Assembly (NCBI RefSeq): GCF_026151205.1
Contig: NC_087078.1
Coordinates: forward strand, 5,473,675-5,537,674
Direction of reading: 5' to 3'
Origin: Bolinopsis microptera
Taxonomy: Eukaryota > Ctenophora > Tentaculata > Lobata > Bolinopsidae
Length of the DNA stretch: 64,000 nucleotides
Made by a program: the position numbers and the translations under genes. Shown one piece after another: positions 11,402 through 62,895 of this stretch (positions are counted from its first letter, which is position 1; each line of letters opens with the position of its first letter). The notes under the pieces were generated by a model that was not told the DNA's origin, did not search any database, and was given only the letters and a program-made list of their open reading frames with translations.

Positions 11402-14400
11402 ATGTCGAGATTCAGAGGAAATCCCCGGTTTGGGGGTCCTGGTCCGGGAGGGCCCCCTCGCCACCTCATGAGAGGAGGCGGTCCACCTAGAGGAGGACGA
11501 GGAGGATTCCAGCAACACCGGGACCGACAGCCCATGAACTTGATGGGTGGACCCGGGCCTAGAGGACCTCCTAGAGATAACGGACCGGGGCCTAGAGGCC
11601 CTCCTAGAGATCGAGGCCACGATGGCCCCAGAGGCCCCTCTAGAGATAGAGGTCAGTGAATAATTTTGTACAGAACCTTATAAGTTCTTTTCTTAAACAT
11701 TCAATTTCGCTTTATTCGTGTCCTAGAAACCTCTTAGAGCCACCAATAAGCATATTTTCTTGACCCCTCGAGTAAACTCTTAATTCAGGAGGTTTCCAGA
11801 ACAACAATTTCCGCGGGCGAGTAAATTTCCGCGGTGGGAACAACCGTGGCCCTATGAACTCATCACCAAGCAGCTCCAACATCAGAACTGAAAGTAAAGA
11901 TAAAAGCGAAGTAAGTTCAATATACAACTTTTCTCGTCCTGTGAGGAAACATTTCAATAAGTGCGAATTGTTATTGTGCAGAAAATTTTACCTGCACAAT
12001 TTTTGATTGGTTTGACTTATTATTGCCACCAGGTTCAAGAATTTCCAGTCCCAGCTGTAAAACCAGCTGTTAAAGATGAACCCAAAGCCGTAGAAGAGCA
12101 GCCTAAAAAAGCGGTTGAGCCAAAGAAAGACGAGCTAATGGATACAGCTGAATCCAGCAAGCCTGCTCCAGCTCCCGAAGCCCCTGCAGAAGTAGTACCT
12201 GCTCCAGAACCGGAGGTTACAAAACCTGATCCAGTGGCCGAAGAGAGCGTTCCACATCTCACGGAGGTTTGTCAAACAAGGAATAGAATTTAACTGTAGG
12301 AAAAACAAACGACAGATAATGAAATTAAACAAAAATTTGTTATTTAACGGGGGGGGGGTGTCACGTCCGTCTATGTCCGCTTGTCTCATAGAATCCAAAA
12401 AGGACAGGACATAGGCGGACATAGGCGGACATAGGCGGACATAGACGGACATAGGCGGACATAGGCGGACATAGGCGGACATAGACGGACATAGGCGGAC
12501 ATAGGCGGACATAGGCGGACATTAATGGACACCTAAATTGCTAAATAAAATGTTCAATTTTTGCTGTTATAGGGGATCATGTTTTTTGTCCGTTCGGTAC
12601 CCTATATTTTCAAAACGGACAAAAAATAGAGCGGACAAAAACGGACAAAAACGGACAAAAATGGAAATAACATTTAGATGCTTCCTCCTCCTACTCTTCC
12701 TCCTCCTCCCCCTGGGTCTTCCTGATCTTCCTCAGTCCTCTTCCTCCTCCCCTCCTCAGTCCTCCTCCTACTCCTCCTCCTCGTCCTCAGTCCTCCTCAT
12801 CAGTCCTCAACAGTCCTCCTCCTCCCCAGTCCTCCTCCTCCTCTTCATCCTCCTCCTCTTCCTCCTCAGTCCTCAGTCCTCCTCAGTCCTCCTCCTCATC
12901 CTTCTTCTCAGTCCTCAGTCCTCCCCCAGTCCCCCTCCTCCTCCTCCTATTCAGTCCTCCTCCTCCTCCTCCTTCTCAGTCCTCCTCAGTCCACCTCCTC
13001 CTCCTCCTCCTCCTCCTCTTCCCTCTCAGTAATCCTCCTCAGCCATCCTCCTTAGTCCTCCTCAGTCCTCCTCCTCAGTCCTCCTCCTCCTGGGTCCTCC
13101 TCCTCCTCTTCATCCTCCTCCTCTTCCTCCTCGGTCCTCAGTCCTCCTCCTCCTGGGTCCTCCTCCTCATCCTTCTCATCAGTCCTCCTCCTCCCCAGTC
13201 CTCTCCCAGTCCCCCTCCTTCTCCTCCTCCTATTCAGTCCTCCTCCTCCTCCTCCAGTTCTCCTCAGTCCTCCTTCTCATTTCTCCTAAGTCCTCCTCCT
13301 GAGTCCTCCTCCTGAGTCCTCCTACTCTTCCTTCTGAGTCCTCCTCCTGAGTCCTCCTCCTCTTCCCTCTCAGTTATCCTCCTCAGTCATCCTCCTCAGC
13401 CATCCTCCCCAGCCATCCTCCTCAGCCATCCTCCTCAGTACTCCTCAGTCCTCCTCCTTCTCAGTCATCGTCAGTCCTCCTCCTCAGTCCTCCTCAGTCC
13501 TCCTCCTCCTCCTGGGTCCTCCTCCTCCTCCTCCTCCTCCTGGGTCCTCCTGGGTCTTCCTGATCCTCCCCAGTCCTCTTCCTCCTCCCCTCCTCAGTCC
13601 TCCTCCTACTCTTCCTCCTCGTCCTCAGTCCTCCTCATCAGTCCTCAACAGTCCTCCTCCTCCCCAGTCCTCCTCCTCCTCTTCATCCTCCTCCTCTTCC
13701 TCCTCAGTCCTCAGTCCTCCTCAGTCCTCCTCCTCATCCTTCTTCTCAGTCCTCCATCCTCCTCCTCAGTCCTCCCCCAGTCCCCCTCCTCCTCCTCCTA
13801 TTCAGTCCTCCTCCTCCTCCTCCTTCTCAGTCCTCCTCAGTCCACCTCCTCCTCCTCCTCCTCCTCCTCTTCCCTCTCAGTAATCCTCCTCAGCCATCCT
13901 CCTTAGTCCTCCTCAGTCCTCCTCCTCAGTCCTCCTCCTCCTGGGTCCTCCTCCTCCTCTTCATCCTCCTCCTCTTCCTCCTCGGTCCTCAGTCCTCCTC
14001 CTCCTGGGTCCTCCTCCTCATCCTTCTCATCAGTCCTCCTCCTCCCCAGTCCTCTCCCAGTCCCCCTCCTTCTCCTCCTCCTATTCAGTCCTCCTCCTCC
14101 TCCTCCAGTTCTCCTCAGTCCTCCTTCTCATTTCTCCTAAGTCCTCCTCCTGAGTCCTCCTCCTGAGTCCTCCTCCTCTTCCTTCTGAGTCCTCCTCCTG
14201 AGTCCTCCTCCTCTTCCCTCTCAGTTATCCTCCTCAGTCATCCTCCTCAGCCATCCTCCCCAGCCATCCTCCTCAGCCATCCTCCTCAGTACTCCTCAGT
14301 CCTCCTCCTTCTCAGTCATCGTCAGTCCTCCTCCTCAGTCCTCCTCAGTCCTCCTCCTCCTCCTGGGTCCTCCTCCTGGGTCCTCCTGGGTCTTCCTGAT

Positions 14401-17400
14401 CCTCCCCAGTCCTCTTCCTCCTCCCCTCTTCAGTCCTCCTCATACTCTTCCTCCTCGTCTTCAGTCCTCATCAGTCCTCAACAGTTCTCCTCCTCCCCAG
14501 TCCTCCTCCTCCTCCTCCTCCTCAGTTCTCCTCAGTCCTCCTTCTCATTTCTCCTAAGTCCTCCTCCTGAGTCCTGCTCCTGAGTCCTCCTCCTCTTCCT
14601 TCTGAGTCCTCCTCCTGAGTCCTCCTCCTCCTCCCTCTCAGTCATCCTCCTCAGTCATCCTCCTCAGCCATCCTCCCCAGCCATCCTCCTCAGCCATCCT
14701 CCTCAGTACTCCTCAGTCCTCCTCCTTCTCAGTCATCGTCAGTCCTCCTCCTCAGTCCTCCTCAGTCCTCCTCAGTCCTCCTCCTCCTCCTGGGTCCTCC
14801 TCCTCCTCCTCCTCCTCCTGGGTCCTCCTGGGTCTTCCTGATCCTCCCCAGTCCTCTTCCTCCTCCCCTCCTCAGTCCTCCTCCTACTCTTCCTCCTCGT
14901 CCTCAGTCCTCCTCATCAGTCCTCAACAGTTCTCCTCCTCCCCAGTCCTCCTCCCCCTTCTGGGGCCTTTTCCTGGGTCCTCCTCCTGGGTCCTCCTCCT
15001 CCTGGGTCCTCCTCCTCCTGGGTCCTCCTTCTCCTCCTCAGTCCTTCTCCTCCTCCTCCTCAGTCCTCTTCCTCCTCTTCCTCCTCCTCCTCCCTCTCAG
15101 TCATCCTCCTCAGCCATCCTCTTCAGCCATCCTCCTCAGTCCTCCTCCTTCTCAGTCCTCCTCAGTCCTCCTCCTGAGTCCTCCTCCTCCTGAGTCATCC
15201 TTCTGGGTCCTCCTCCTCCTCCTCCTCCTGGGTCTTCCTGATCCTTCTCCTCCCTCTCAGTCATCCTCCTCAGTCATCCTCCTCAGCCATCCTCCTCAGC
15301 CATCCTTCTCAGCCATCCTCCTCAGTACTCTTCAGTATTCTTCAGTCCTAAAAATGTTTGTCCGCTAATGTCCACCAATGTCCGCTAATGTCCACCAATG
15401 TCCATCCAAGTCCGCCAATGTCCGTCCGGGTCCGCCAATGTCCGTCCGAGTCCGCCAATGTCCGTCCGAGTCCGCCAATGTCCGTCCGAGTCCGCCAATG
15501 TCCGTCCGTGTCCGCCGTTGTCCCAAAAAACACGTCCGTTGTCTCATAGAATCCAAAAAGGACAGGACATAGGCGGACATAGACGGACATGACACCCCCC
15601 CCCCCCCCTTTAACCTCTAAAATGTATAATCCCACTTGAATGCTGAAAAAAAATGCCGAGGCTCTCTCGATATTTGTTAAGTTAGCTTAGAATGTCACTT
15701 GAAACCCCGCTGAATTCCTGACTCCCCATCAGGTGTACATTAGTGAGTACCTGTGTGACCTCTACCTTGACGTTGATAAAGACGGTGTGACGGGTATCCC
15801 GAAGAGTACAGCTGGGTTTGACTGCTTGTGGGCCTCGCTTCGCGCTACTCACGGTGTTTCTGGGGGCAAGGTATGCTTGAAAATTTCATTAATGATGGAT
15901 TAGTTTGTTGTTCTTGCTGTTGGTTATTGTGTTTTGTCCGTTCGTTTGTTCGTTTGTTTTACGTCTGTTTGTTTAACTCTTCGTTTTCAGGAAGGGATCT
16001 CATCTTTAACTCTTACTTTCAGATGGAAATTGTATTTGTTTGATAGAAACTTGACCAATATTTAAGAACATTATTCTTATTTAGGGTAGCCATGCTTTGC
16101 TCCTGTGTCGGCGGTTATTCATCTAGTGACACCAACAAGACGATCTGCTTATTTGACAGGTTTGTTCTTTTCGATAGTTTTCTTCGGATTTTCACATTCC
16201 TTCTATTATTGATTTGCTTTAGTTAGTTCTTTAATGTTATTGAGTTTGCTACTGGGTATATAGTTATTACGTAATATAATGCATTGTTGCGAAGATTTTA
16301 GTATTTATCTACGAATCTACTATAAAATAAAATCACCAATAATCAAAACTTATTTAATGCATGATCCGCAAAGTTTCCCCGACAGCTATTATAGCCATGT
16401 TTGCGCAATTCTCCTTGTACACCGTCAGTGACGATAATTATATCTGTTTCCGATAAAAATGCGATAATAGTCACGTGGGTTTATAGAGACATAAAGAAGG
16501 TTTCTAGTTTTGAGTTAGGTATTTCAATATTAAATACGGGTCGAAGAAAGCAACTTATTTCAGCAACACCCATCTAGATCTCACTACACTCTGATCCCGT
16601 AAATTATGTCTTCTGCTAACCACGATTGATGAAGATCTCGTCATATCATATGGGGTTTTTTAGATAGCTAGAAGAAGAAATAGGATATGGGAGGATATTC
16701 ACTATATTTCTGTTCGATTCGGTTCGAAATATTTTGAAAGTTGTTTACATCCCCCGCGTTACGCATCGCCTTGCAGTTTTCTGCGTAATTTTTCAGAGAA
16801 CAGTACCTTTGATAAAAAAGACATGGTCATAGCGATAATATATTGGTTGGGTAATGGGTATTAATTGGATCCTTTTCTGGAACTTTTAATAGAGGTGAAG
16901 TTTTAAGATGTTTACATGAGCCCATATTATAAAGTGCCCCATTTACGTATAGTGTTCAGCGTTAGCAAAGCTGAATTAACATATTTCATAACTCAGTCAA
17001 CAGTAAATTAACAGTATTACTATTAGGAGGCAAAAAGCTGGAATGGAAGTGATCACTATATATAAGCACTACTTATTTACTTGAATCATCGTTTTGTACC
17101 AAAATTGCTCTCCATGAGGCACCGATACGTACCGGGGGAAAAAAAACAAACAAGTGGAGTATTATTCAAAGTTGTTTTATTTATTATAGGTTTTTAAACC
17201 TCGATCTCACGAAACGGACCACGCTCTTAAACACATAGCTGGCGAGCGACTGCTTCACGTAATAAATCACGTACGTCTTTTAAGTGGTTCCCGCACTGTA
17301 TTGCGACAACGCTTTTAATTATTATAAACAAAATTTAACTTAATTAAAATTAATCAGTGAAAAGGAAATTTTCGTTCCTCGAGTACGGCTCACCTTAATT

Positions 17401-20400
17401 CCTCCTTGTGATTGAGGAGAACCAGGATATCCTTGTCGCAATATAATGTTGTCGCAATATAGTGGTCTAGCAATGTAGTGCGGTTACCCTTGCGGGCGTA
17501 TACTTGGTCTTTTGCTTGCAAGTTGTATACTTAGTGATAGTACTCAGCGATAACTCCGAGATGGCCTTCATCAGCGTAGATGAATAAAAAACCAAGATTA
17601 TGCTCCTAACCTGTAAATCTACTCGAATCTTGAAGAGTCCACTCATATCAATTATAAGCATAAATGTAAATGTCCAAAAGATGGCCCCTGTTCAAATTGT
17701 TCTCATAGCTTTGACCGTTGCAGATATGCTGGTCTTATGCGCTTGGTTCGGATCTCGTCACTAAGCCAACTTAGCTATTATTTCATGCTAGGCCTTCGTT
17801 CACCGCGGATACTGCGGCCCCAGGACAGCTTGTTTAGGATCCAGATGAGTTTACGAGACGTCATTCCTCACGAACCTGTATCTCCGTAAATTATTAATAT
17901 TTATCTCTTAATAGTGAGACTAATAACAGTCCAATTTAGATGCTAAATAAAAGTACAACTCTCAACCTCCAAGAGACAATTGTTTCGACCAAAGGATACA
18001 TAGTAGATAAAAATTAAAACTGGATCCAGTACCAGATTTGTTCAATTGCTATTCATTTGCAGCTTTCATTAATGTTGGTGGGTTTGTCGTCGCATCTCGC
18101 CATTTATGATTATTGTAAATTTTCGCCATTCATGATGAGAATGGGAAAATTTATTTTTGCCATCAATGGCAGACATTTTTCCGACTTCTTTTCTCCATAT
18201 ATTGATATCAAAATTCACAAAAGTTAATGGCGGAAAATGTGATCACGCACCCACCAATGTTCAATTTTCTCTCGAGTTGAATTATAGTTCCTTTAGCATA
18301 AGTATATCATCAAATTATAACTTATTTTATAACCATTTTCTTTTTAGAGATTTACAGCTGACCTGAGGAAGAGGAGAACCTTTGGAAGCGAAGATGTCTT
18401 AAATCTTGAAAGCGTGGAAAGACCAGTCATGGTGTAATCTAAATCAACAGATACGAGTTCCAAGAATCGTACAAGGGGTCGTTCACCTGTTACGTTAGCC
18501 AGCTTAGGGGCCAGGGGGGGGGTTCGGAAAAGCTTACTGTAATTACTACACAAGTGTTATGTGTTAAATGGCTTACGGAGGAGGGAAGGGGTCTAAAATA
18601 GCAAAAATCTGGTTAACGTAATACGTGAACAATCCCAAATCTGAATCAAAAGATATGAGTTCCAGGAATCGTCCAAGTAGCTCTCAGATCAATAGCACTC
18701 CATTTATAGAAAAAAGGCACCATTATATTATAGTCTATCTTTTGGAGTGATCATCAAGTTCGGATGTCATTGTTGCCAAGGCGTCGTTTTGTAACTTATT
18801 AAAGCAACAAAGAAGTAAAATGGTAACTGGCGAGGGTTTAAGTTAGTGCTTCAATCTTAATCACGACGAAATTTATAAGTCCTTGAATCTCAACAGTTTT
18901 AGAAAGGCATTTATAATTATGATGAGTCACCATATTTCCTGGTTAAAAGTGTTAAGTGCGGTTGGGGAACCCAAAAAACCAGTCGCCATAAGATATTCCA
19001 GATTTATTTCTATATATCTGCGAAAATAAAGTGAATTTTGGCTCGATATATCATATAACCGTAGGTGGTTTTTCGAGGTTACTCTATGGGCTGAAGTAAG
19101 AATCCTACAGTGTTGCATAAAAATGATTTTTGTTCCAAGACAGAAAATTCTACTAAAAAACAAACGCCGAAGCGTTTCTTTCAATCTTGGTATTGGTTTT
19201 TTGGTTGTCAAAATTAGAATAAAATTTACACAGCAAATTATTCTGACTCCTATGAAAATTGAACATGCTGCTTTTTTACTTAGTTGTTCATACTTGGTCG
19301 GTTCATTTTGGAATACAAATTTTTTAACCATTTTTTGAAAAAACCGATAAAAAACGTTCTTGGTTTTGTAATTGTAAGTTTATTCATATCAATCTCACAA
19401 CAAGTTATGAAGGGGCTAAATGAATAAATTAAGGGCTAATTAAATATTATACTGCTTTAACCAGGCGCACGGGGACGATGTTTTGGGGCAAAACGTTTTT
19501 AACGTCCATAACAACTAAGTTTTTTAAATTTTGACGCCACTGGAAGCCTTTTCATGACTCAGTTTTAGTCTGTAATAATGATTCTGAAATATGAGGAAAG
19601 TTGAGTAGCTCAGCATTTGCTTTAATTAAGTCATAGGAAAGGATCATTTTTCGGTTTAGACTTTGTGTTTCGGTTTTTCTATTTCAGCTACAGAAATCCC
19701 ACCGTTGACCAACCGATCGCGGAATACTTCGATACGACAAACACACTATTATATCTCAGATCAGAATATTATTCAGTGTTTACTCACCTGGCCATCGACA
19801 ATATAGCCGTAAAAATTCATTTGGAGTGCTAGAAGATTTGCTGAGTGGTACGGTTTCTCCCGTCCAAAACTCAAATACATTATTCAATAGACTTGAATAT
19901 TTTAGTAGGATAGCTGTCCAACTTGGACATGGATTTTGAAATGTGAGAGCTCTGTGTAGTGTGTAGCGACCACTTTGGGTAGTATATATGATTGAAAAGA
20001 TGAAGATTATTCATAAGTATGGGAAATAATGGGGAGGTGGTTTTGGCAGTGATTTGATCCCATCAGCTTGCAGCATCGACCAATCAAATACCACCTCCTA
20101 ATCATTACCCACATTTTTATCGCGTTCAAAATCAAATTTGCTCGTTCACTTAACATATATTACGTAAGCCACCACTAGTGGGTAGGTGGTTTTGGAAGAA
20201 TTGCTCCAGTGTTATTTCTACACTGAAACGTGTAGAAGAATGTTTAAAGTGGCTGACGAAGTGGCTTACGTAATATATGAACGAACCCTAAGTAAATTCG
20301 AGGTTGAGAACTGGGTAACCTGGCCTCAAAGTTAAACGGCGTCATAACGAGTACAATTCTGACACGATATGACAAAAACACAAAACCTTGCATCTCGAAT

Positions 20401-23400
20401 CTCGATATCATCAAACAAACAAAACATTTGTATTTCAATAGGCAATACATATTTCGAGGTCAACTAGCACAAAGTAGGAGTCCACAAATTCCGATGATCA
20501 GTCGAATGTTTTGTCTCCATTTTTTATTGTAGTGTTTTAAACGTGTCAAAAAATACTCGAATTTTATGCTTGTCGGCTTCATGAACGTGAATTTTCAAAA
20601 TTCATTCCAGAAGCTTCCAAATATCTAATTCGCCGCGCCGGTTACCCAGCCTTTCCTCAAACTTACCAAATCAGCACTCACGGACTACTCGATTTTCCAG
20701 TGAAAAGATGATCTTAACTATTTCCCAATGCAGCTCACTTTCTCAGAGACAACTCTGGGCTCACTGCCCTCAACAAACTGACCAGTTACCCCAGCAACCA
20801 GTTACCCCAGCAATCAGTTACCCCCGCAACTGATAGAGGGAGATGGTTCCAGCAGAGTTCCTTGTTTTTGTCCCAGTTTGTTTGTCAAGTTGGTTCGTTG
20901 TGATCTGTTAAAATTACTCGTTGTTTCTTTAAATACGTGTGGACTGTATAAATAGAACCTGCAATTGCAGATGTTCTCAGTTAAGTTAACTCACGACTTC
21001 GTGCCTCAAAACGTCGTGGACCCTTTACTTAACCCTAACCCTAACCCTAATCTTATCCCCAACACTACCTCTAATCCATACCCTCACCTTGACCATAACT
21101 CTTACCCTGCTTCACTGGAGCACGATTCTCTGGGGCACGAAGTCAGAAGTACTACTACAACGATTTGTAGTACACCTGACAATCAGACCTGTCGGGAGTA
21201 AATACTGCTGACCACACAGTACCATCTGTTATCCTAATCAGATAACCCTACCTGGTAGAAACAGTTGAACTTTAAGAATGATTTATAATTGCAATTAGTA
21301 GGATTGTTCCGGGGACATTAGGTATAGGTGAAGGTCAGTAATTTACGTGACGCAGTTATTGGATTCGCTGAGTGGTTTTTGAGAGATTATTTATGCAGAA
21401 CATGAGATTTGTAAAATGATTTGGCTCATGAGTTTTATCGCACGCTTGTCTGAATTCAAACGCTTGTGCACGTACACTTACGTCTTACAGCCGTACATGC
21501 GAAATTGAAATGAGAGTTCATTCCACACTGACTGAAGTAAACCAGTGACAACCAAGTATAGCGGAAGAGATACAGGATTGAGGCTTGAAATTATCTAAAT
21601 ATTCCAAAATATTTGATTCACCACATCATATTTGTATCCCTCTTTCCTCGGACGCTATGCCCTCGAAGATCGCACGGACTCTGATGAATCAAATATTTTG
21701 GTATATGTATGATATATTTTTTGACGATGAAATGATCTGGTCGTTCTTTAAATGTTTTATGTGCTATGGAAATATGTAATATAAGGGTGATCAGATCTCA
21801 GCGCACTGATCTGGAACACAAAATTTGTATCGGGTGATGTACAACTACAGTTAAATTGTCACAAATAAAAATTCAAAACCAATCTTCCTCCATCATGTCT
21901 TCCGTCAAACAGTCAGCCATATCTCCGACCACTATCAGGTACTGGCGCAACAACACTGACTTCCCTTTTGGGTTCATTGGAACTTCCTGAGTTTTAAACA
22001 TGCTGGAAACTGAGTAGAGTAAAGTCCTGACACTATACTGTCGTTTTAGCCGAGTGGAGTGTGACTGGTTGGCTTTTGCATCTCTGTAGGGACACTCTCG
22101 ACATACATTGAACTTACCAGTAAAATTGTAAATATCTAACACTGCTGCCCGGTTTGTAAAGTGCTGGAACAAGTTACATAAAGAACCTTCGTCTGTACCG
22201 CCAACACAGAACCAATTGTGGAACCTCCGAAACATGTCTTGCATTACGGGGTAAAGTTTCTTACAGCAGAACAACCTTGTGATCGCTGTAACCATGCCAT
22301 CCTGATAACACTTATCTGGACTCCCCTGCTCGAACATTACCATAAGGGCATCGTAAACCTCCCTGAATTCAAAACGCTGCTCACAAAAAATGCCCACCAG
22401 GAAAAGACTGAGCAACTTCATACTAGGTTTCGTTAGCTTTCTCGGCCAACTCTGGTCCCCTGTGCAAAGATAACTCCGAAAGAAATTGGAAAGTTCGTCC
22501 CATTCTACTGTTTTTCTTCGCTGGAGGGCGCTGAAGTTTTGTGGAGTTGAGTGGTTTTGGGTATCAAAAATTGGGAGAAGTTTAAAACAGGTTATAAAAG
22601 GTATTAAATATGGAATTTTGACCATATGATTTGATCAGGTTGCAGGGCCTGTAATAGGTTAGACTGAGTTTGAAGTAGAGAGAGAGAGAGAGAAAGATGG
22701 AACTGTTAGTTACATGTTCGTTCTTTATTGTTGGAAATCGGTCAAATCTGTTCATTACATTAAATTACCTCGCATTAATTCGTGGTAGTAGCTCTAACTG
22801 AAAGGTCAGAAGAAGTAACCAGAGAAAAGATATCCGCCCCATAAATTTCTATAAAATTCAACATTAAGAGCTCAACTTAAGTCATTACAAAATCCTGAGA
22901 GTTAGGCAACTCGCTATTGCCTCGTAATAAATCTGAGATAAGGGATCGTTCACAATTCACATATTACGATAGCCAACTTCAGCGGCCAGGTAGCGCAGTT
23001 GGTTAGAACGCCTGTCTTACAATCGTTAGGTTGCGAGTTCGAAACCCACTGACTGCCTGGTCGTGGGGTGAGCGTCGTCGACGTTCAGCTAAGGATCATG
23101 AGTGGTCTATGCAGCCCCCCGGTCTACTCAGCCGAATACTCGAGAAATCGGGTGTGAGGGTTAAATGAGGAGCTGCACATTGCAGCAAAGTCTCGGACGA
23201 AGAAAGTATGGTACACACTACCTTAACCGTCACTGGCCAAAAAGATCCTTCGGCTTCCTGTAATTGGCTGGTTGCACTTGTGTAACATTGTGGCTGTTGG
23301 AATACACCGAAGTAAAATAAGTGTCTAGATAAAAAAAACATAGGGGGCAATAGCTCACGCTAGTGTAATTTCTACCCAATAGCCACGTGTTGGGTAGCTG

Positions 23401-26400
23401 AGGGTGGAGGTGTTTAAAATGGCGAAAATCTGGCTTACGTAATTTATGAACGGTCCCTGATGCAATCGTACCGATATTATAGGAAGTTCAAATATTTATG
23501 AAATAACGATTTCCAAAGTCGTTTTAAAAATCCTGAGTCCAAATCACACTGCTTCTAGAAAAATTACGTCACAAGCCGAGTTACTACGGTACTAAATACC
23601 AATATTCGCGAAGTTCTAAATTTCGTGATTTTATATTCTGACACCTGGTTCCATGATAATTTGTATTTTAAAGTTAACCCCTACTGCTCCGGCCGTGCAC
23701 CTGGTTTAATGTTAACTTAGTAACAGAGGTCACGAGCGTCGTGTTATTTACGGTTCCACTGGAAATAGGCAAAACAACCTGAGCTCTGACTGTTGAGGAA
23801 AGCTCGTCATAAAATTTGAAACCATCTACAAAAGCCACATCATAATAGGAGATGCTGGCGTGTTACGTACCGTCTAGCTAGGGTCTAAGTCTCAGGATCT
23901 TATTGTAATGCAGTATCAAAATAGATATCAGGATAATATAATAACTGTGCTGTTTGTGATAAGCCAGTATATAAGGGGAGACTGCGGGGTGTCTACAGAT
24001 TGAGATATCTATTCCACTGAAACTTCAAACACCGAGACGGTTTAACTCCAAACAAATCAAAATACTACCAGCTTATCCGAACTCGTGTTGTCACAAGGTA
24101 TTGAAATACGGATTTTAAGCTGGCCCAGCTCTACTTTGGATTACCTGGTCCGAGGTTCGGTTTTTAACTGAAAATCACCAAAAGTCGTGTTAAGAACATG
24201 TGACATGTGTATCATAGAACTACAGTCTCATCACGTGGTAATAAGGAACGTTGAGGTGGTTAAAGTGAGTCAGGTGTGCCAGCAATTAACAGTGTTAATT
24301 TGTGTAACCACTAACCAGTGGTTACCAGTAGTTACCAGTGGTTACCAGTGGTTACCAGTGGTTACCAGTAGTTACCAGTGGTTACAGTAATCACAGTTAT
24401 TTAATTTTGACTTTATTTTGCAGTTGACACCTCTCATTCTTCAGATAGCGTTTGAAGTGTTGGCACTAGAGAACACCACTAGTAGTACGGAACAGAATGC
24501 TTGTGTACTCAGAGTCGGCTGGTCGCATGATGAGATCGATATATCCGTGAGTTCTTTATTTATTGTTATTTTTTTGTATTTCCTACTTGAATATCTTTGA
24601 TGATCATATCTAAGTTATTCATTATAACAGAGTTATTCATTATCACATCATAACACTGAGTTATTCATTATTAATATTAATTATTACTCAGCTGTTGTTA
24701 TTTCTGCCTTCATTCAGTTTCATAATGAATTATGTATGATACTGATTGTTGCAGTTCAGTCGTTATTTGTATTTATTTTTTAATTATGTCCAAAAATCGT
24801 TCTTATGAGTTATCAAAATTGATGTCATCTAAAATACAAAATAATACACATATTATACACTACTTCACTATAAGTTTTAAACATTTGATTCAAACTTTTT
24901 CAAACAATAAAATTCCGAAATTACCGCACGTTATAAGTTATTTGATTTAAAAGGCGAACCCTGTAGCTGAACATCATACAACAAGATGTTTAAAGTGTAT
25001 AAGTTGCAACTTCCCTCCGAATTTAGGGGGTTGGGATTTGGCAACCCTCTTCGGATCATTGATATGTCCGTAATTTATAGAATAATCAATTGAAAACCGT
25101 AGTTAACGTTACGATACAATTAATATAGACGTCAAGAAATCTTTTGTATTAAAATGTTTCACTTCCTAAATTGCCAAAAGTTCATCTTCAGTTGAGCATA
25201 CAGAACATGAAAACGCCCAAGTCATAGTAAAGATCCTGCCTCATAGCGCTCTTTACCATCTTCCTCCAGGATTCCCAATGTTCCTCGCTGTCAATGCTTG
25301 TTGTCATAACTCCAGATCCATCAATGAGCTGCTCTGCAACATCTCTCAGCAGCTGTTAAGATAGTGGTATTACTATTAAGGGACATGTAATGTAGTCCGA
25401 GGAGTCCTAATCCTCGGACTAATTTAATCCTCCTCGCGTTCTAAAATGCCAGATGGCTTTTCTCTTCTAACATTTTATTATATGTAAGCAAATTTTCGCT
25501 GTAGAATAGTTTCCGAATGTTTTGAGCAAGGTTTGTATTGATTTTTATTGAGTCCGAACACCGAACACGTAACAAACAATAACCCCCCCCCACAGTATCC
25601 CCCAACAGTATCCCCTATATGTTGAGTCTTACCTCCACGTCACTACCACTAAAATCAAACTCCGCCAGACGAGGCCAAACAGGTTTTAAGAATTTTATGG
25701 TGATACCAAGCTCGTAGCCAAGGCTGCTTGGGCTGCTTCTCTTCTTTCTGGGACTTAGATCTGAAATAATTCCCTACTATAAAAAGATGCAGCTACATGT
25801 TTAAAATTTAAAATTCGTGGTTAGAAAATCGAGATCTGATTATAAAGATGACCATAGCCTGGAAAACTACTAACAAGGAGCAGTGAGTGTAGAATTTCCA
25901 GAGGTAATCCCTGGGTATCTGATCTTGAAGGCCAGCAGATTCATGTACTGCATGATACCGTTATTCTCAATATCCTTCATACATCCACACACTTCGGATT
26001 CTGGGTCCAGCAGTTTAGCCGCCAGGTCATACTGTTTAGCAGCTTGGTTCCATAGCTCGGCCATGTGGAAAACGTGTGTTGCCATCTCAAGAGGGCTGTA
26101 ACCTTTCACCTGCCAGTCGGCTCTGTCCATGTTTCTCATCACCTGGGCGATGTTTGTTGGAAATGGGGGGGGGGGGGGGGGGGGGGGAGAAATAGAGATA
26201 AAGTATGGTTTTTTGTTTTGTGTTTAGAAACATTTCTGACGGATTACAGCCTACAAAGTGTTTAATGTTACCTTACCATATCAAACTGTCTCATAGCTGG
26301 AGTGGAGAAGTCGTCATCATAACCAGCCAGGGGGGCATGAGGGAGCACTCTCTCCTCACTATCCATATCCGGGTTCACTGAAAATACAAGCTATTATCAC

Positions 26401-32048: not shown

Positions 32049-32840
32049 CCTGCCTTCTTTTCCAGGAACTTTTATCTCTGAAATATTTTATCTACAGACG
32101 TCTAATTTTTTTACAGATGAATTAGAATTTGACTGTTTTGGTTCACGTTGTAGTTTTAAATGCCCCTCTTAACCTCGATTAAACTATCGTCGTTGTTATA
32201 TTCTTTTTGTTTTATTAGGCGGACTGAGAAATGAGAAAGCGAATGAGTGAAGTTGAAACAAGACGATTATATTATAGACCTCACAAAACTCCACGTATAT
32301 TGATATTTCTTATTCGACACTGTGAATGTGGGATTGATTGGATTTTATAATTCCAATTTCAATCGATCTCACTTAGCTAATTCTTTTATCATCCAAGATC
32401 GAGAGAAACCTTTCTCAGCTCCAAGCTTTGAGAAGACTCTTTCGGTGTTGGTTTGTAAAGATCAATGAATGTATCGTGTAGTGAAATTGAATGAAAAATT
32501 ATTTATTGATATTATGTTCTATATTTGTTATTCAAGAAAAAGTCTGTCTTCGTTGTACATTTAGTGTTAACTAGTGATGCTCGCAAAATATTTATTCAAA
32601 ACTCGGCGCATGTCTTGGTAGATTATAAACCTACAAATACATTACCTGGGGACCTCAGGCTATTTAATTATATTTATGTTCATAATCATAGAGTTCGGCG
32701 GAATGACAGGCTGAATCCACAGTCAGAGAACGAATTTTCCAGGTTGCGCGCGCGCGATCTATATTTTATTTTAATTTTCCCTTGCGATACAATATAGTAA
32801 ACGTTGCATACATTTTTCTTGTCATATGTTGTATGACCCG

Positions 32841-32858
32841 CCGCGCACGAGTGCGCGG
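32841..32858. repeat. perfect GC palindrome
   Basis: CCGCGCAC and GTGCGCGG are separated by GA, a perfect 8-bp hairpin stem in otherwise AT-rich sequence. Confidence 0.8.
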
Positions 32859-33834: not shown

Positions 33835-33860
33835 CACTGTCACTCCAAGGAGTGACAGTG
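33835..33860. repeat. perfect hairpin with 12-bp arms
   Basis: CACTGTCACTCC, AA, then GGAGTGACAGTG. A perfect stem with a 2-nt loop at the edge of the GC-rich repeat cluster. It could be a rho-like or transposon hairpin end; the function is unknown. Confidence 0.85.
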
Positions 33861-34939
33861 TCCAGTTAATTCCATATGGAATTTGAAAATAGTGTATATT
33901 TCTATGTATGTAGTAACCATACGTTTAAATTGTTTATGCAACCTGATATGACACAAATCTATGCAATATAGTATTACTAACTTGCGAAGTATCAATTAGT
34001 GCTTAGTGGATACGTACATGTCAAAATTAACAATTTACTTGATCAGTTCAGCGCCGCATGCCAATAATAATTTAATTCGGAATATTTTGCAAACTAACTA
34101 ATTTTTGGATTTAGATTAATTCGATGTAATGGGTCCAAGTTACTGCGGACATAGTTCACTATGTGTTTACCGTGTTTGGGTGCCCATCATATTTTACAGA
34201 TGGGGGCGATATTTTGAACGATTCTATTTTATATTCATCTATTGCTGTACTCTGTAAAATTTGAAAAGTATTTAATAAAAAAAAACTTTGCGCAGTTGTA
34301 TGTTGTAAATTAGTAGGAATGTGGGTGACATTTGTCATTTGTGCTCACGGGCCACGTATGTACGCTCGCAGGCACGCATGCACCTCGTTTGCTTGACTCT
34401 TTTCTGCCTTCGGCACAGGAGTCATGGATCGATAAAAAATCTAAAACATTAATCAAAATTCTAGGAATGCTGTTTCCTATTCCTGTCCTTTTTCTACAAT
34501 CTTGCTAAAAATCGTAAGGTCCAACTCCATTTGCAAGCTGAAATTTACCACAAAGAAGGGTCGTTTTTGGTCAATTTGCAATGTTTTTTTTTTTTTTCAT
34601 GTCCCTGTTGCCGGGGGGGATTTTGTTTAGTTTTTAATATAATATAGATTAATCTCTATCTTAGTTTGAACCATGAAATGTCAAGCAAATCTAAAAAAGA
34701 AAATGCAGTAAAAATGAATTAATTAAGTTGTAATTTTACATATCTCATATTTACTTGAAATTGAAATGTAAAAATTAAATTGACTGTAAGAATACTTAGA
34801 TTTTCTCCGAACGATGAATTAAATTTCAATCAAAACACTACTCAGTTAAACAACAAATTTCAGTTAGAAACAAAAATTTTAATTTTATGCCATTTATTAC
34901 AGAATAAACAAGTTTACAATAAATCAATTTTGATATATA

Positions 34940-37793
34940 GGGGGGGGGGGGGGGGGGTGTCACGTCCGTCTATGTCCGCTTGTCTCATAGAATCCAAAAA
35001 GGACAGGACATAGGCGGACATAGACGGACATAGACGGACATAGGCGGACATAGACGGACATAGGCGGACATTGGCGGACATAGACGGACATATACGGACA
35101 TTAATGGACACCTAAATTGCTAAATAAAATGTTTAATTTTTGCTGTTATATCATGTTTTTTGTCCGTTCGGTACCCTATATTTTCAAAACGGACAAAAAT
35201 GGACAAAAACGGACTAAAATGGAAATAACATTTAGATGCTTCCTCCTCCTACTCTTCCTCCTCCTCCTCCTAGGTCTTCCTGATCTTCCTCAGTCCTCTT
35301 CCTCCTCCCCTCCTCAGTCCTCCTCCTACTCCTACTCCTCCTCCTCGTCCTCAGTCCTCCTCATCAGTCCTCAACAGTCCTCCTCCTCCCCAGTCCTCCT
35401 CCTCCTCCTCCTGAGTCCTCCTCCTGGGTCCTCCTCCTGGGTCCTCCTCCTCCTCTTCATTCTCCTCCTCTTCCTCCTCAGTCCTCCTCAGTCCTCCTCC
35501 TCATCCTTCTCCTCAGTCCTCCATCCTCCTCCTCAGTCCCCCTCCTACTCCTCCTATTCAGTTCTCCTCCTTCTCCTCCTCAGTCCTCCTCCTTCTCAGT
35601 CCTCCTGAGTCCTCCTCCTCCTCTTCTCCTCCTAGGTCTTCCTGATCTTCCTCAGTCCTCTTCCTCCTCCCCTCCTCAGTCCTCCTCCTACTCCTACTCC
35701 TCCTCCTCGTCCTCAGTCCTCCTCATCAGTCCTCAACAGTCCTCCTCCTCCCCAGTCCTCCTCCTCCTCCTCCTGAGTCCTCCTCCTGGGTCCTCCTCCT
35801 GGGTCCTCCTCCTCCTCTTCATTCTCCTCCTCTTCCTCCTCAGTCCTCCTCAGTCCTCCTCCTCATCCTTCTCCTCAGTCCTCCATCCTCCTCCTCAGTC
35901 CCCCTCCTACTCCTCCTATTCAGTTCTCCTCCTTCTCCTCCTCAGTCCTCCTCCTTCTCAGTCCTCCTGAGTCCTCCTCCTCCTCTTCTTCCCTCTCAGT
36001 CATCCTCCTCAGCCATCCTCCTGGGTCCTCCTCCTCAGTCCTCCTCCTCCTGGGTCCTCCTCCTCTTCTTCATCCTCCTCATCTTCCTCCTCGGTCCCCA
36101 GTCCTCCTCCTCAGTCCTCCTCATCATCCTTCTCATCAGTTCTCCTTCTCCTCAGTCCTCTCCCAGTCCCCCTCCTTCTCCTCTTCCTATTCAGTCCTCC
36201 TCCCCCTCCTCCTCCTCAGTTCTCCTCAGTCCTCCTTCTCATTTCTCCTAAGTCCTCCTCCTGAGTCCTCCTTCTGAGTCCTCCTCTTCCTCCTGAGTCC
36301 TCCTCCTGAGTCCTCCCCCTCCTCCCTCTCAGTCATCCTCCTCATTCATCCCCCTCAGCCATCCTCCTCAGCCATCCTCCTCAGTACTCCTCAGTCCTCC
36401 TCCTTCTCAGTCATCGTCAGTCCTCCTCCTCAGTCCTCCTCAGTCCTCCTTCTCCTCCTGGGTCCTCCTCCTCCTCCTCCTCCTGGGTCCTCCTCCTGGG
36501 TCTTCCTGATCCTCCCCAGTCCTCTTCCTCCTCCCCTCCTCAGTCCTCCTCCTACTCCTCCTCCTCGTCCTCAGTTCTCCTCATCAGTCCTCAACAGTCC
36601 TCCTCCTCCCCAGTCCTCCTCCTCCTCCTGGGGCCTTTTCCTGGGTCCTCCTCCTGGGTCCTCCTCCTCCTGGGTCCTCCTCCTCCTGGGTCCTCCTTCT
36701 CCTCCTCAGTCCTTCTCCTCCTCCTCCTCAGTTCTCTTCCTCCTCTTCCTCCTCCTCCTCCCTCTCAGTCATCCTCCTCAGCCATCCTCCTCAGCCATCC
36801 TCCTCAGCCATCCTCCTCAGTCCTCCTCCTTCTCAGTCCTCCTCCTGAGTCCTCCTCCTCCTGAGTCATCCTCCTCAGTTCTCCTCCTCCTCCTCCTAGG
36901 TCCTCCTTCTGGGTTTTCCTCCTCCTCCTTCTCCTGGGTCTTCCTGATCCTCCTCCTCCCTCTCAGTCATCCTCCTCAGTCATCCTCCTCAGTCATCCTC
37001 CTCAGCCATACTCCTCAGCCATCCTCCTCAGTACTCTTCAGTACTCAACAGTCCTCCACCTTCTCAGTCCTCCTCAGTCCTCCTCCTGAGTCCTCCTCCT
37101 CCTGAGTCATCCTCCTCAGTCCTCCTCCTCCTCCTGGGTCCTCCTCCTGGGTCCTCCTCCTGGGTCTTCCTGAGTCCTCTTCAGTCCTCTTCCTCCTCCC
37201 CTCCTCAGTTCTCCTCCTACTCCTCCTCCTCGTCCTCAGTCCTCCTCATCAGTCCTCAACAGTCCTCCTCCTCTCCAGTCCTCCTCCTCCTCCTCCTCCT
37301 CCTGGGGCCTTTGATAAAATTTGATAAAATAAGTTAAAGCTATTAATAGCTTTAGTGCGATTAATAAGTTATATTCCCTATATATATTTCGTTAAATAGG
37401 TACTGTGCCTACTGTGTACCCTGTGTAACTGTTTCAAAGATATGTTGACGACACAAATAGATCTGGATTTAGCGACCGGATTTGGTGACTGGATTTAATT
37501 AAATATTGGGAATATTTGTGAGATCTTTATTCTTTAGACCTCTTATATGTCCGCTGATGTCCACCAATGTCCGTCCGAGTCCGCCAATGTCCGTCCGGGT
37601 CCGCAAATGTCCGTCCGAGTCCGCCAATGTCCGTCCGAGTCCGCCAATGTCCGTCCGAGTCCGCCAATGTCCGTCCGTGTCCGCCAATGTCCGTCTGTGT
37701 CCGCCAATGTCCCAAAAAACACGTCCGTTGTCTCATAGAATCCAAAAATGACAGGACATAGGCGGACATAGACGGACGTGACACCCCCCCCCC
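34940..37793. mobile_element. G-run-terminated non-autonomous element, copy 2 (2854 bp)
   Basis: Same plan as copy 1: 18 G then TGTCACGTCCGTCTATGTCC at the left, the inverse and 10 C at the right, and TATATA duplicated directly at both borders (34934-34939 and 37794-37799). It shares with copy 1 the left 10-bp array, the segment CACCTAAATTGCTAAATAAA and onward with GGACAAAAAC units, the CT satellite core and the right 20-bp array. The right border is 66 bp before the start codon of the next gene. No transposase is encoded. Confidence 0.87.
35237..37312. repeat. CT-rich satellite core of copy 2
   Basis: Same unit family as copy 1 (CTCCTCCTCAGTC). Here the first block is duplicated exactly with a period of 362 bp (AGGTCTTCCTGATCTTCC at 35272 and 35634), a duplication not present in copy 1. 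The core is thus remodelled independently in each copy. Confidence 0.9.
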
Positions 37794-37858
37794 TATATAC
37801 TGAAACATCTGAGGTATATTCCTGAACTTCTTTGTTGCTATATACTACTCCTTAAAGA

Positions 37859-42061: not shown

Positions 42062-42837
42062 AAAGTTTTGGTAGCATTGTGAAATGATATTTAATCCGAG
42101 GCTTTACTTTACCATTACTATTGCAACGACTGATTTTGTATTAAATGTTATACAAGCTTTAATAACAGTCTTATCAGAGGATTTGTTGTTATTCCAATTT
42201 TAAGTTTTAAATTTGTATCAATTAATAATTCTTTTGTAAATTATTTTCATTAATTATGGTTACCGCTACATTAATTAACATATTCCAAAAATGTATGTTA
42301 TCGTGTATTTTAAACTAACAATTCAGTGATCATTTATTTTTGTGTAAGTAAATACATGTTAATTCATATTTAAGTATTTAGACTTTTAGAAATATTAATT
42401 TAATTGTTTTATACTGTTTAGCCAAAGCGGTACCATGGGTTTGAACGTTTTTAAGTTTTTTTATGTGTTTAATGATGATGTGTTTATAATTCGGTATTAT
42501 GCTATTACTTGATTTTTATATCAAGCATTTAATTTATTAATTGATAAATTGAATTTTTATTTTGCTGTCGTCCATGTCTACTTTCGTTTGATAATTACTA
42601 GACTTCATCCTCTTTAAACTCTACCTTGATTTTATTCGCAGTTTTCACTGATCACTGATCCTCAAATCTTTCATCACTTCCAGATCCAGCTTCCTCAATA
42701 TTCCATTAAATATTTGTAACTGTTTGTATATAAACTCTTAATGAATATTGAATATATAAACTTATATTTTTGTTATTTGTTTATATTATTAGTTTATGAT
42801 CAGTTTATTATATTAGTTTATATTATTATTATATAGA
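42062..42837. other. intergenic, nothing recognised
   Basis: AT-rich sequence between VHL copy B and MIER. It should contain the MIER promoter; no motif stands out. Confidence 0.5.
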
Positions 42838-57854
<15,017 letters not shown>

Positions 57855-60800
57855 CTAAACTCCATCACACACGAATCTCTTTGGCAAAGTCTCTTCAGAT
57901 CCTAATAAAGTCCCGTGAACGACCTACTGTGATTTTAACTGTTATTTATACCGTTTGCGCACAGGAGTATACATATTACAATATTATGTAACATTAAACT
58001 ATATAAACTAATAATTGTTAAACGGGTTTGTGTGAGAATAAAGGCATCGGTTTTGTTAGAAAGCTTTTCGGCCACGATTTATATAATTTAAATTTGATTA
58101 ATTTGTTACCGTACCTATTCAGTATATTTATATCCACGTTTCCTTAATAAGTAGAGGTGAAGTTGGGATTTAATATGGGTTTGAGTTTAAAAGTACATGT
58201 CCTTTAGTGACCACTCGACACCTCAGCTAAATACAGCTTGAAGGGTCCCACATACAGAAAGTTTTTAATTTCCTCGCAGATCAATGTTTCCTCCCTAAAA
58301 TGTTTGTTATTCCTTTAAAATAAAAAGGTCAGGTCCTCTAAAAATGTCTTTTTTGGCACCAAATTTCCTCAAACATTGCCTCGCAGATTATCAGGCCGCC
58401 TTTCTGGATGTGGGAGAAGGGTTCGTTTAAATCTTATCCTGAAAGAATTTTATAAACCCGCTTTTTCTTCGACGTGGTCATGATTTTCCAAAACTGTCCG
58501 AAATTAGTAAACTACACTGCCAACATAAGCGACTGCTGTACTGCTGAAATAATGCATGTTCATAACTTATTACTATTTGATTGCAGTGGAGCTTTGCAAG
58601 GTTGAGCGTTTGTTAATAGTAGTGTTATAGTATCCAATTATTGCGGACTGCGGAGTTATAGAATTAAAGTAAAAATGCTGCGGATAATGATGTATATAGC
58701 TTGAAGTATTTGACGATCTTATGATAAAGTATGTTCATAAAATTATAATAGAGATGTCATCATCTGGATATTTTTAGAGTGATCAAGTGTTAAGACATTA
58801 TCGACGTTACCATTTTTACTTGGTATTGATGTCGAAAATTGCAGTCCATCTTTCCATAAAAGCGCAGATAGTGGATTGATATTTTGTATCAGGCACAATA
58901 CAACTATAATATTGAGAGTGCACCTGTTTATAAAGTGGTACCGTATAAATTTATGATAATATTTTGTTGTACAAACTATACAACCAAATTAAATTCTTAT
59001 CTTTAAAATGAAGTTGTCCATTGTTCAATCATGAAATGATATGATGAATTGAGTATTAGAGTTTGGATACCTGAATGTAAATATCCAACATTTGTCACGA
59101 ACAAATTATTGTAGATTTATAATATATTATGATAATCAGATAAATAATATTAAGTATTATTAATATATAATATATATATATTAATAATATATTATTGATA
59201 TCACAATAAATTCAATTTCAAAACGAGGTCTCTTCCAATACTACTCAGTATAGTGATACTGATGAAAATCGATATTATCATATATCATATCGCATTATAT
59301 GCAAATATGATTCAATCATAGATGGCAGTGTATCAGAACAGGATCACTAATGAAGATTATCACAAAAAATGTAAGGATAGGTTAACATTTACTTTCAATT
59401 TTCAGTTTTGTATATCACGTCATGCGCTACTTCGAGAACATTAGCTCAAAGAGCGAATATTTTCATGATACCATCATTGATATCGTCATGATGCTACAAA
59501 TCAGGCAGTATTACTGCAAAACCCGGTTAGATCTAAGTTCTTATGACGTCATTAAAAGTGGGTGGAAAGCTATTTGAAGACGTCATAGTGTCATACTGAT
59601 ACGTTCTCGGAATTCTTGAAAAGGCCAAGCCCATATTAAAGACGCGGCTAGGCTTCTAAAAGGTGCTAAGTAGGCTAGAATAGTGTTGTATTTTCTGTAG
59701 CTTTGAATCTTTATTGTACTAGTACAGTTGGCTCCCGATATTTTATGTACTCCTTTCTTTTATCTTTGAGTTTGAGTTCTATTTGCGCGATTTTGTTTGA
59801 ATAATGTAAGTTTAGTTTTATAATTATATCAATGAGCGTGTAACGTATACTCATATTATAATGTCACTGATACTCCGATGGCAATTCATGAGCATCAATT
59901 CAACTACCACATAGACTTCTATCATCACACATCAGAGCTTCCTATACAAATTGGTTTTCTGAAACTTCAAGTATTATACTCCTACTATTGCAACTGTATC
60001 TCTATTATAATTCAAAGAATTCCCTTTGTATGTATTTACGACCGCCCACGTGCAAATCAGACGAGAAATAGGTAGTTGCGTAGTAACCATAGTAACGAGG
60101 ATTGTTACACGGACGTGCACGTGCAATGATTGTTTTAACGTCATTTTAATCGGTTTTGTTGATATTACGGCTACGCTGTGTTTAGTACGAGCGCAGCAAC
60201 ATTTTATTTGGCTGTATCTTCGGTGGGGATGAAATATGAATACTTTTTGACACGATTAAAACTGACTTCCAAAGAATACTATTAGGTTCCTCCCTGTGAC
60301 CACGGGCTTTCTAGTATTATATAATACTAACTTTTACTACATTATATCAGTTTTACACGATCCTCACTTTTTCAAGATTTATTCATCCCGAATAATCAGG
60401 GATCATGTAAAATTAAACCGGATTCAGCAGGATTACTTTACAGTTTACGTCTAGTTCTACCAGTGGTCAGTGACAGTGCATTCCAAATACATTTACTGAG
60501 AATAAGATTACGAATCAGGATACAGATAAGGGAAGTAATATCACCATTAAATTAAGAACCTCTCCGAAAATAAGGATACAGATAGGGAACCTCCCCGAAG
60601 GTTTTACGTAAATCACAGCTGTTCATGTCATGGCGGGAGTAAGATGACGCATTTTGTGTGACAGTGTTAAACCTTAGCAAAGAAGTTTGTACTTGGTGGG
60701 GCCAGATGACGTGTGGTTTATCAGATGCTAGAATGTTTGATATATAAATACTCGCTGATAATTGCAATTGTGTCATTATTATAGGATTATGTTTAGTATT

Positions 60801-62147
60801 TTCGTCACTGAATACGTTGTTGAAAACATGTACCAGGAACCATGGTAAAAATAAAAGGATATAATGTGGTTTTATCGTTATATAATCAGATTTCGTAGGA
60901 CTAGGAGTTTTTATTGTCTGCTTTTATTCTCACTTGCAGATTTATGGGCTTGCCCTTGGCAACCTGCCCTGCCCCACACTTTGCTTTGAATTACTATTTA
61001 CTAGGCCGAACCATAATCAGATTAGACTCTTCCTTGTCTACATGATAAAGTTTGGTAACGAGGCTGTATCTTTAGGACACCGTAGTTAACGTTTTACAGG
61101 AAACACAGACTTTTGCTGTTAGCTCGCTTCCGGCTCCAACTATAATATTACCATGACGTGCACAATTCAACAGCTCATTTAAATAGCTTTGTCAATTTCT
61201 CAGTCTTAAACCGCCATTAATTCTCTTGTAACCGCTTGACGTGATAAAATAATAGGAAATTCTTAACTCTAACGAAATCAAGCAGAGTTTAACTAAATTT
61301 CCCAAATTAAGACATCGCCAATACTCTGCTGCATCTAAAGAAGCATCAGACCAGTTGATAACTTCGGTGTGAAGGAATGCTGCTTTTTGAACACTTTGCA
61401 TTGCATGTCAGAATTTGTATTATTTCGTCCAAAGTTTAAATTCCACCACCCTCTTATTTGTCACCACGAAGCTGAATGCTTGTCGAACTCTGACCACCAT
61501 TAATTTGCAATCCTTAATCCAATCTCTAGAATTCCTCACTTCATCCCAGATCATTAATCACTAGTCTCCCTGAAGGATTAGTTGGGGGCTGGTCCGCTTT
61601 GTCCCGTTATATGGCCACATTTCCTTGACGTATTAATACTTGAGATTCTAACGATTAGATCGCCTTACAATAACTAGTCATGACATGTGTTTGTATGTAA
61701 TAAAATCCAATCAAATGAAATATTATACCTCCTTCGTTTTAGAAAGCTTCAGTAGCAATTTGATTTGATTTGACTTTGCTCATGCGGATTCGTTTTGATT
61801 TTTGGCAATAGCCCCACCAGTACTACAACTAAGAATAGAACATTTTGTTTGTACGCTCCTTCCACTTTCTAATATTACGGTTAAATATAATTTTGATAAT
61901 TTTCATGTTGCAATTAGTCTAATCAAACACGAAAGATAAGCCGTTGATTTTAATTAATTATACCTCAAATCTCCGTTGGTCGGGATTTTTAACTTATAAG
62001 CTATAATTCTTATTTTTATGCTCAATGTTTCGTAGACCACGTTTGAAAGTTTCAAAACGATCTCGGACTGAATATGTTACTTGGATTGTAAAATTTACTG
62101 CAACTGTTCTTGTGAAGTTGGTCTTGATTTTATCTAGAATCTTTTTT
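57855..62147. other. intergenic region, no gene recognised
   Basis: About 4.3 kb of AT-rich sequence after MIER. Open frames here are short and compositionally random. AT-only runs occur around 59140-59210 (TATATATA). I find no conserved exon, tRNA or clear element. Confidence 0.55.
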
Positions 62148-62856
62148 GGGGGGGGGGGGGGGGGGGGGGGGGCCAACCATATTAAAGTATATTAAAATGT
62201 AGGATTTTTCCCGATTTTGACCCGGGGATATACTTTAATATACTTTAATATACCTACAATATACTTTAATATCCCTATCTCCTTGGAGGCCTACTTCAAA
62301 AATTGTTGCCCAAAATAAGCTTGAAATGCAATTCTTAATCTATTCCAAAAAGTTCTTGAAAAAATATTGAAAACTGATGGAGTTATTTCAATTTTAATGA
62401 AGTCATTTTGGCTAGTATTCCGAACCGAGATATTATGTGCAATTTTCCCAATTTTGTTCATGGAGGTCTTTTTACTTAGTATCCACTATATTCAACAAAC
62501 ACTGAGTTATATCTTTCACATAGAGTTAGTCTCATTAAAAAATATTGAAATTTTATCGAATTTGGTCAAAAGCGAATTTGGGCAAAAGCGTATGCCCAAA
62601 TATGGGCATACTTTTTAAAGCTCATAGCTCAGCCAATTTTTGACCAATCTGGATGGAAATTCATGTACTAGTCCTAAAACAGGCTTATCTTGCGAATCTG
62701 AGTGAAAAATATAGTTCATCATGTAAATCTTAACGAAGAATATAAATCTTCTAATTGTAGGTATATTAAAGTATATTAAAATGTAGGATTTTTTCCGATT
62801 TTGACCCGGGGATATACTTTAATATACTTTAATATGGTTGGCCCCCCCCCCCCCCC
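62148..62856. mobile_element. 709-bp G-run-terminated element
   Basis: Left end: 25 G then CCAACCATATTAAAGTATAT. Right end: the exact inverse followed by 15 C. TTTTTT is duplicated at the borders (62142-62147 and 62857-62862). Inside each end an arm of about 80 bp (ATGTAGGATTTTT, CCGATTTTGACCCGGGGATA, TACTTTAATATAC) is present in the same orientation on both sides and is itself flanked by inverse TATTAAAG/CTTTAATA units. The interior is AT-rich and non-coding. The G-run, 6-bp A/T duplication and mixed direct/inverse arms match the two larger elements, although the sequences differ. Confidence 0.85.
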
Positions 62857-62895
62857 TTTTTTGTACTGAAAAATAACCTCCTACCCAATACAGAA

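Follow-up and report, generated by a model that had tools for sequence, protein, structure and literature searches.

A 64,000-nucleotide stretch of the genome of the ctenophore Bolinopsis microptera (NC_087078.1, positions 5,473,675 to 5,537,674; hereafter the window) contains three non-autonomous elements that begin with a run of G and end with a run of C on the plus strand: E1 (12349-15608, 3260 bp, G10 ... C14), E2 (34940-37793, 2854 bp, G18 ... C10) and E3 (62148-62856, 709 bp, G25 ... C15). An earlier, sequence-only reading had reported three such elements with perfect 6-bp flanking repeats, and all three lie where it placed them, with TTTAAC on either side of E1 (12343-12348 and 15609-15614), TATATA on either side of E2 (34934-34939 and 37794-37799) and TTTTTT on either side of E3 (62142-62147 and 62857-62862). 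The outermost tips are inverted, and the segment just inside them, given as 40-80 bp in that reading, recurs in direct orientation at both ends; self-comparison defines arms of 56-73 nt that are 96-99% alike, namely 12375-12432 and 15534-15590 in E1 (element positions 27-84 and 3186-3242, 58 nt, 96.6% identical), 34974-35029 and 37723-37777 in E2 (positions 35-90 and 2784-2838, 56 nt, 96%) and 62179-62251 and 62763-62835 in E3 (positions 32-104 and 616-688, 73 nt, 98.6%), each pair on the same strand. The arms contain 10-bp iterons, GGACATAGGC in E1 and E2 and TATACTTTAA in E3. Cross-comparison agrees with the sequence-only reading that E1 and E2 have both arms and interior sequence in common and that E3 has only the architecture in common with them, being a member of a second, separate family. 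E1 also reads TG..CA immediately inside its G and C runs.

Minisatellite-like repeats occupy the interiors of E1 (12683-15349, TCCTCC-rich, self-matching at element positions 335-3001) and E2 (35239-37310). A TCCTCC-rich minisatellite whose leader is similar in each (by eye, translating as KNGQKRTK..FRCFLL) is found in the E1 and E2 interiors and in two copies of a related family described below (F3-type, L115 and L122), and looks as if it had been passed between families. Elsewhere in the window, a lone G-run end (55943-55986, plus strand; G11AG11 followed by CCAATGGCATAAAATGGAGAC) resembles the tip of another such family, F2, which makes 8-bp duplications; no partner end was seen within the window, and the end is broken, beside a LINE-like frame (by eye). 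An isolated C27 (7779-7805) and an isolated G23 (26165-26187), for which no partner was recognised by eye, are perhaps lone ends of further families. The window also encodes a single-frame, 1018-aa ketoacyl-synthase/acyl-transferase protein resembling polyketide synthases (3115-6171, minus strand).

The G-run termini described in the sequence-only reading recur genome-wide. Pattern searches of the 264.65-Mb assembly found 570 E1-type ends (250 G10+TGTCACGTCC and 320 G6+TGTCATGTCCGTC) and 246 E3-type ends (G6+CCAACCATATTAAAG), and reversed-pattern controls for each of the three tip patterns found none. Tip sequences of the group include G5+TGTCACGTCC, CCAACCATATT, TAATGCAACG and TACCAATGG. Among the matches listed, 56 E1-type elements of 1.1-12.1 kb could be paired within 16 kb, of which 53 have a CAC end opposite a CAT end. 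Target duplications were read in 48 E1-type copies (46 of these 56 pairs, plus E1 and E2) and in 32 E3-type copies chosen among the matches listed (including E3, one solo arm, one three-arm copy and one copy from a tandem duplication), all found through G-runs no shorter than 6 or 10, so that the counts apply to copies with runs of that length. An exact 6-bp duplication flanks 30 of the 48 E1-type copies; in ten others 5 bp match and the sixth base may be a G or C merged into the run, and eight have fewer than 4 bp. Thus 40 of 48 are compatible with a 6-bp duplication, ten of them by way of the merged base, a lenient way of counting since a chance 5-bp match often allows it. The E3-type copies comprise 21 with exactly 6 bp, three with 7 bp, one with 8 bp, five with 5 bp (three with an absorbable base, two without) and two with none. 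When the right flanks were shuffled 2000 times, exact 6-bp matches averaged 0.9 in the E1-type sample (maximum 7) and 1.0 in the E3-type sample (maximum 5). Most copies read in both families thus carry the duplication noted in the sequence-only reading. Duplications vary from copy to copy at A/T-rich target sites (A/T fraction 0.89 for E1-type and 0.85 for E3-type), and the 30 exact E1-type duplications tend to be centred on TA, with T as the third base in 24 and A as the fourth in 25 of them.

The possibility that the G-run is the target site was rejected: the run is inverted between the tips, one reading G and the other C, and so belongs to the element. Run lengths range from 6, a lower bound set by the search, to 36 in 37 E1-type elements, with no positive correlation between left and right runs (r = -0.23), and are unequal (26/38, 17/21 and 33) even in E3-type copies within one tandem duplication (L013). 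The duplicated unit of L013, of approximately 2.4 kb, also carries a hAT-like frame (by eye). In the related F1 family, the 14 tips of seven two-ended copies have 4-6 G, and the eighth copy (the insert in L009) has 7 G and an interrupted run. The very long runs may thus be later expansions, by slippage, of a short functional terminal G tract that would grow once long enough.

The combination of direct arms and inverted tips gives every element two ends that differ in kind. In E1-type elements the arm core usually lies 25 nt inside one tip, and usually 40 nt inside and reversed at the other. The two ends are unlike in this sense in all 36 scorable cases among 37 of the 48 E1-type elements and in all 29 scorable cases among the 32 E3-type elements, one of which is a solo arm and trivially so. 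Flip-flop ends of the rolling-hairpin kind were considered and rejected, since core orientation is invariant in the copies scored, each of which has two unlike ends. The fixed orientation could reflect plain descent instead of a pairing rule.

The sequence-only reading had suggested looking for a coding copy between the same ends, and one was found for each window family, in both cases with broken or spliced frames. The longest E1-type pair (C3:11553861-11565981, flanked by AACGTT) contains minus-strand frames of 415, 281, 237 and 233 aa adjoining its right arm, and a second element (C11:763321-770229, L118) has E3-type left and right ends, both flanked by AAAGTT. Proteins of the two elements are homologous (BLASTP 3e-53). 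With transposase-like frames between E1-type ends and between E3-type ends, a coding counterpart thus exists for each window family, bounded by that family's own ends. Part of E2 (element positions 2375-2430) is 89% alike to a stretch of the E1 coding element lying immediately interior to its arm, and part of E3 (positions 575-709) is 90.5% alike to the E3 coding element's right end, to approximately 40 nt beyond the arm, as expected of deletion derivatives.

A search starting from the 415-aa frame reached the longest open frame of the group, one of 766 aa on C11. The 7-kb element that contains it, L107, has direct arms, 10-bp iterons and G-rich tips (CCAACGCCCTAAAAGG), and no duplication was seen at its ends. 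The 766-aa frame has 63 matches at E<=1, itself included, and in the surroundings of the part of these that were examined, seven families were distinguished: E1, E3, F1, F2, F3, L107 and L119. All seven have G-rich tips, short iterons (by eye, 10 bp in E1, E3, F1, F3 and L107, approximately 9 bp in F2 and less regular in L119) and direct arms (68-114 nt and 90-97% alike in F1, F2, L107 and L119; by eye in F3). A short relative of the E1 frame (L108, C5:5.39 Mb) lies where no tips were recognised. One candidate member, F4 in L109 (4369-5730), was rejected since its architecture differs; it is a G-run-tipped, 1.36-kb fold-back with 674-nt inverted arms (98% alike) and TTAA flanks, situated inside a copy of an L107-type transposase gene.

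The 6-bp duplication, reported for the window elements by the sequence-only reading, is a trait of E1 and E3, and also of F3 (three of three copies; a fourth, L114, has no right end) and of L119 (from the single copy read), but it does not extend to their relatives F1 and F2, which duplicate 8 bp. F1 (521-aa frame, tips GGGGGTAATGCAACG) has the 8-bp duplication in eight of eight copies with both ends read, exactly in L110, L121, the insert in L009, L127/128, L129/130 and L131/132, and with an absorbed base in L111 and L117; F2 (344-aa frame) has it in three of three two-ended copies (L113 and L124; L139/140 with an absorbed base). Counts exclude copies for which one end was not found in F1 (L116, L133/134, L135/136) or F2 (L112, L123, L137/138, L141/142, L143/144), as well as L001-L003 (single ends), L087 (ends already present in L080/L081), two of the three L013 copies and L114; the unfavourable L107, L097, L098/99 and L100/101, in which the duplication is absent, were retained. 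The F1-type element inside L009, an E3-type copy, provides a filled site (8-bp duplication AATATACC), for which uninterrupted relatives at four other loci (L017, L020, L152 and L160) represent the empty site.

In BLASTP, proteins of the seven families match one another in all 21 pairs, with E-values of at most 3e-10 and as low as 3e-83, against 0.08 at best for shuffled sequences; three of the queries were open frames joined end to end. Their alignment contains, with single-member exceptions, the motifs [SA][IV]D[AS]T, GDGD, QDxxHxxKKxRN and SDxNEQxFAxxRxGxxAGRRTN. The first two acidic residues are 139 residues apart in L107, 128 in L118 and 153 in L084, and the second precedes DxxH by 46, 44 and 45 residues, respectively (the L084 values depend on frame joining); the L118 (E3) frame does not allow the third acidic residue to be read, and the part carrying one or both of the first two is missing from the frames of F1, F2, F3 and L119. 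No credible profile match was obtained: the E1 coding-element frames had only weak, unrelated matches in Pfam and PDB (E 0.016 or worse), and no relatives were found in collections of viral and genome contigs. Catalysis is therefore read from motifs. L107 (2775-3566) and L118 (298-984) have a second protein in common (25% identity over 107 aa, 4e-7), with no Pfam match for that of L107; relatedness of a second protein of L084 was not detectable by BLASTP. In a tree of the seven members, the 8-bp families F1 and F2 are separated by 6-bp families (support 0.93-0.99, only 0.76 for F2-F3), which suggests that the stagger switched at least twice within the group. Such a difference among relatives is unusual inside one superfamily.

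Taken together, E1, E2 and E3 are very probably non-autonomous members, formed by internal deletion, of two cut-and-paste families moved by homologous DDE-type transposases, and the best reading of the group is as cut-and-paste DNA transposons that form either a deeply diverging P-like lineage or a new superfamily. Inverted tips, a near-constant duplication and a protein between the same ends that is DDE-like in its motifs are features of class II (TIR) elements; these elements are ordinary in kind and unusual in their combination of features. Against this stand the eight E1-type and two E3-type copies without a duplication, and L107 likewise. The insertion mechanism other than transposition that the sequence-only reading had allowed for is most likely not involved, since coding copies between the same ends point to a transposase-driven DNA transposon. 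Its other suggestion, an undescribed class of non-autonomous transposons, is supported only in part: the window elements are non-autonomous and the group's protein has no credible Pfam or PDB match, but the motif order resembles that of P, Dada and hAT. A literature search, with Repbase and Dfam outside its scope, found no account of such elements.

A plausible mode of movement would have each family carrying its own short arm iterons and one transposase group serving both. The transposase would bind the iteron arms at both ends and cut at the terminal G tract, and insertion would follow with staggered cuts of 6 bp in E1, E3, F3 and L119 or 8 bp in F1 and F2. With the core nearer the tip at one end, and further in and reversed at the other, synapsis may require two unlike ends, as it does for P elements and under the 12/23 rule of RAG.

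The most serious alternative, which we consider a real possibility though not the probable one, is that the group falls within an established superfamily already in Repbase and is too diverged for HMMER; the likeliest candidate would be P, which duplicates 7-8 bp. The D-D-DxxH-E order, KK.RN after DxxH and a terminal E..F..[IV]R all resemble P and THAP9, and F1 and F2 have the 8-bp duplication. The DxxH-E distance is 177 residues in L107 and 174 in L084 (joined frames), against 192 and 199 in P-type proteins (PMC8230255). However, the seven trimmed members had only two weak, unrelated matches in Pfam at E<=10 (0.065 and 0.21), a PDB profile search had none at E<=10, and the 766-aa L107 protein had no THAP or P-type family match in Pfam at E<=5 (PF21787 matched nothing anywhere, controls included, and is thus uninformative). 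Moreover, the D1-D2 distance is 128-153 residues versus approximately 70, and the window families duplicate 6 bp.

It is less likely that the elements arose as composites, two small palindromic elements, directly repeated, having begun to move together, with the direct arms then being history and not mechanism. Such an origin would fit two E3-type solo arms tipped with G and C and flanked by a duplication (L012, AAATAA; L148, AGTTACA) and an E3-type copy of the form arm-body-arm-body-arm (L010), but the same arrangement occurs in seven families with dissimilar arms, and solo arms are rare (two E3-type at up to 3 mismatches; the sole E1-type match is an ordinary left end) and also explicable by recombination between arms. 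Such recombination, familiar from LTRs, would have two outcomes, which the solo arms and L010 appear to represent.

Chance nesting, in which an unrelated transposon inserted into E1-type and E3-type copies and the real mover is another, is improbable. Nesting does occur here, as in L009 and in L005, where a LINE-like frame was judged by eye to be an insertion, and the 12-kb E1 coding copy contains approximately 6 kb of DNA lacking assignment. Yet the proteins between both end types are homologous, coding and non-coding copies have subterminal sequence in common, the tested zones flanking the coding parts contain no exact inverted repeat of 12-14 nt, and five further families have homologous proteins and the same architecture with their own ends (F3 by eye).

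An LTR-like or virus-like insertion, by a retroviral integrase or as a Polinton, would account for direct terminal repeats, 6-bp duplications, solo and tandem forms and the TG..CA of E1, but is very improbable: no reverse transcriptase, integrase or polymerase was matched among the coding-element frames scanned, including between the direct repeats, where LTR retrotransposon genes would lie. Long homopolymers are error-prone in sequencing and the run lengths do vary, but it is scarcely conceivable that the G-runs are an assembly artefact, given hundreds of ends, matching duplications in most copies read and no ends in the reversed-pattern controls.

If these are indeed cut-and-paste families with homologous DDE-type transposases, a likely mover can be named for hundreds of hitherto unexplained repeats. 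The group apparently contains transposases that no Pfam model scores among the searches run, and therefore copies in this and related genomes may be unannotated or mistaken for host genes. Related transposases with differing cut stagger (6 versus 8 bp) and a pairing of unlike ends seemingly built into the element DNA are both cases that can be tested in vitro.

Several known systems have features in common with the group. Polintons/Mavericks duplicate 6 bp, but their polymerase B, integrase and capsid were unmatched among the frames scanned, and the elements here are of only 0.7-12 kb. P elements duplicate 8 bp and have short subterminal binding repeats and non-equivalent ends, and transposases of their superfamily contain a GTP-binding insertion domain. 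The 8-bp duplication, in F1 and F2 only, is as in P, and the DDE triad, the DxxH after the second D and the long stretch before E resemble it, although the spacing differs in part; the mostly 6-bp duplication of E1, E3, F3 and L119 falls outside the 7-8 bp of that superfamily, and the group differs further in the G-run tips, the direct arms, the lack of HMM and THAP matches in the searches above and a D1-D2 distance about twice as long (139 in L107 and 153 in L084). The catalytic residues of P are given as D230, D303, D339 and E531 (PMC8230255), the duplication of Galileo as 7 bp (PMC3573991), and the order D, D, DxxH, E is described for P, hAT, Kolobok, MuDR and Dada (PMC3706591; PMC8230255). 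Dada, as characterised in PMC3706591, resembles the group in its 6-7 bp duplication, which includes that of the window families, its DxxH and its multi-exon transposase, but its D1-D2 distance is 68, and it inserts into snRNA and tRNA genes, whereas varied A/T-rich sites (0.85-0.89) are used here. Its transposase is further characterised by CCCC and CCHC fingers. IS3EU/GingerRoot has a 6-bp duplication and termini described as TA..TA, in some cases TG..CA (PMC10045372); here, in the copies read, themselves selected by their runs, the G-run sits between such bases and the duplication, the TG..CA of E1 lying inside the run only, and no integrase-like (rve) transposase was matched among the frames scanned. 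The sequence-only reading was right to set the elements apart from IS3EU and Dada, each of which differs in a tested feature. CMITE of Acropora corals, as portrayed in PMC2872659, are likewise small elements (of cnidarians) with inverted tips, tandem arrays and larger units, but have a TTAA duplication, CCC tips and a link to piggyBac. Since P, Dada and IS3EU each differ from the group in features tested, it is filed under none of them, and in its manner of working it may be like P.
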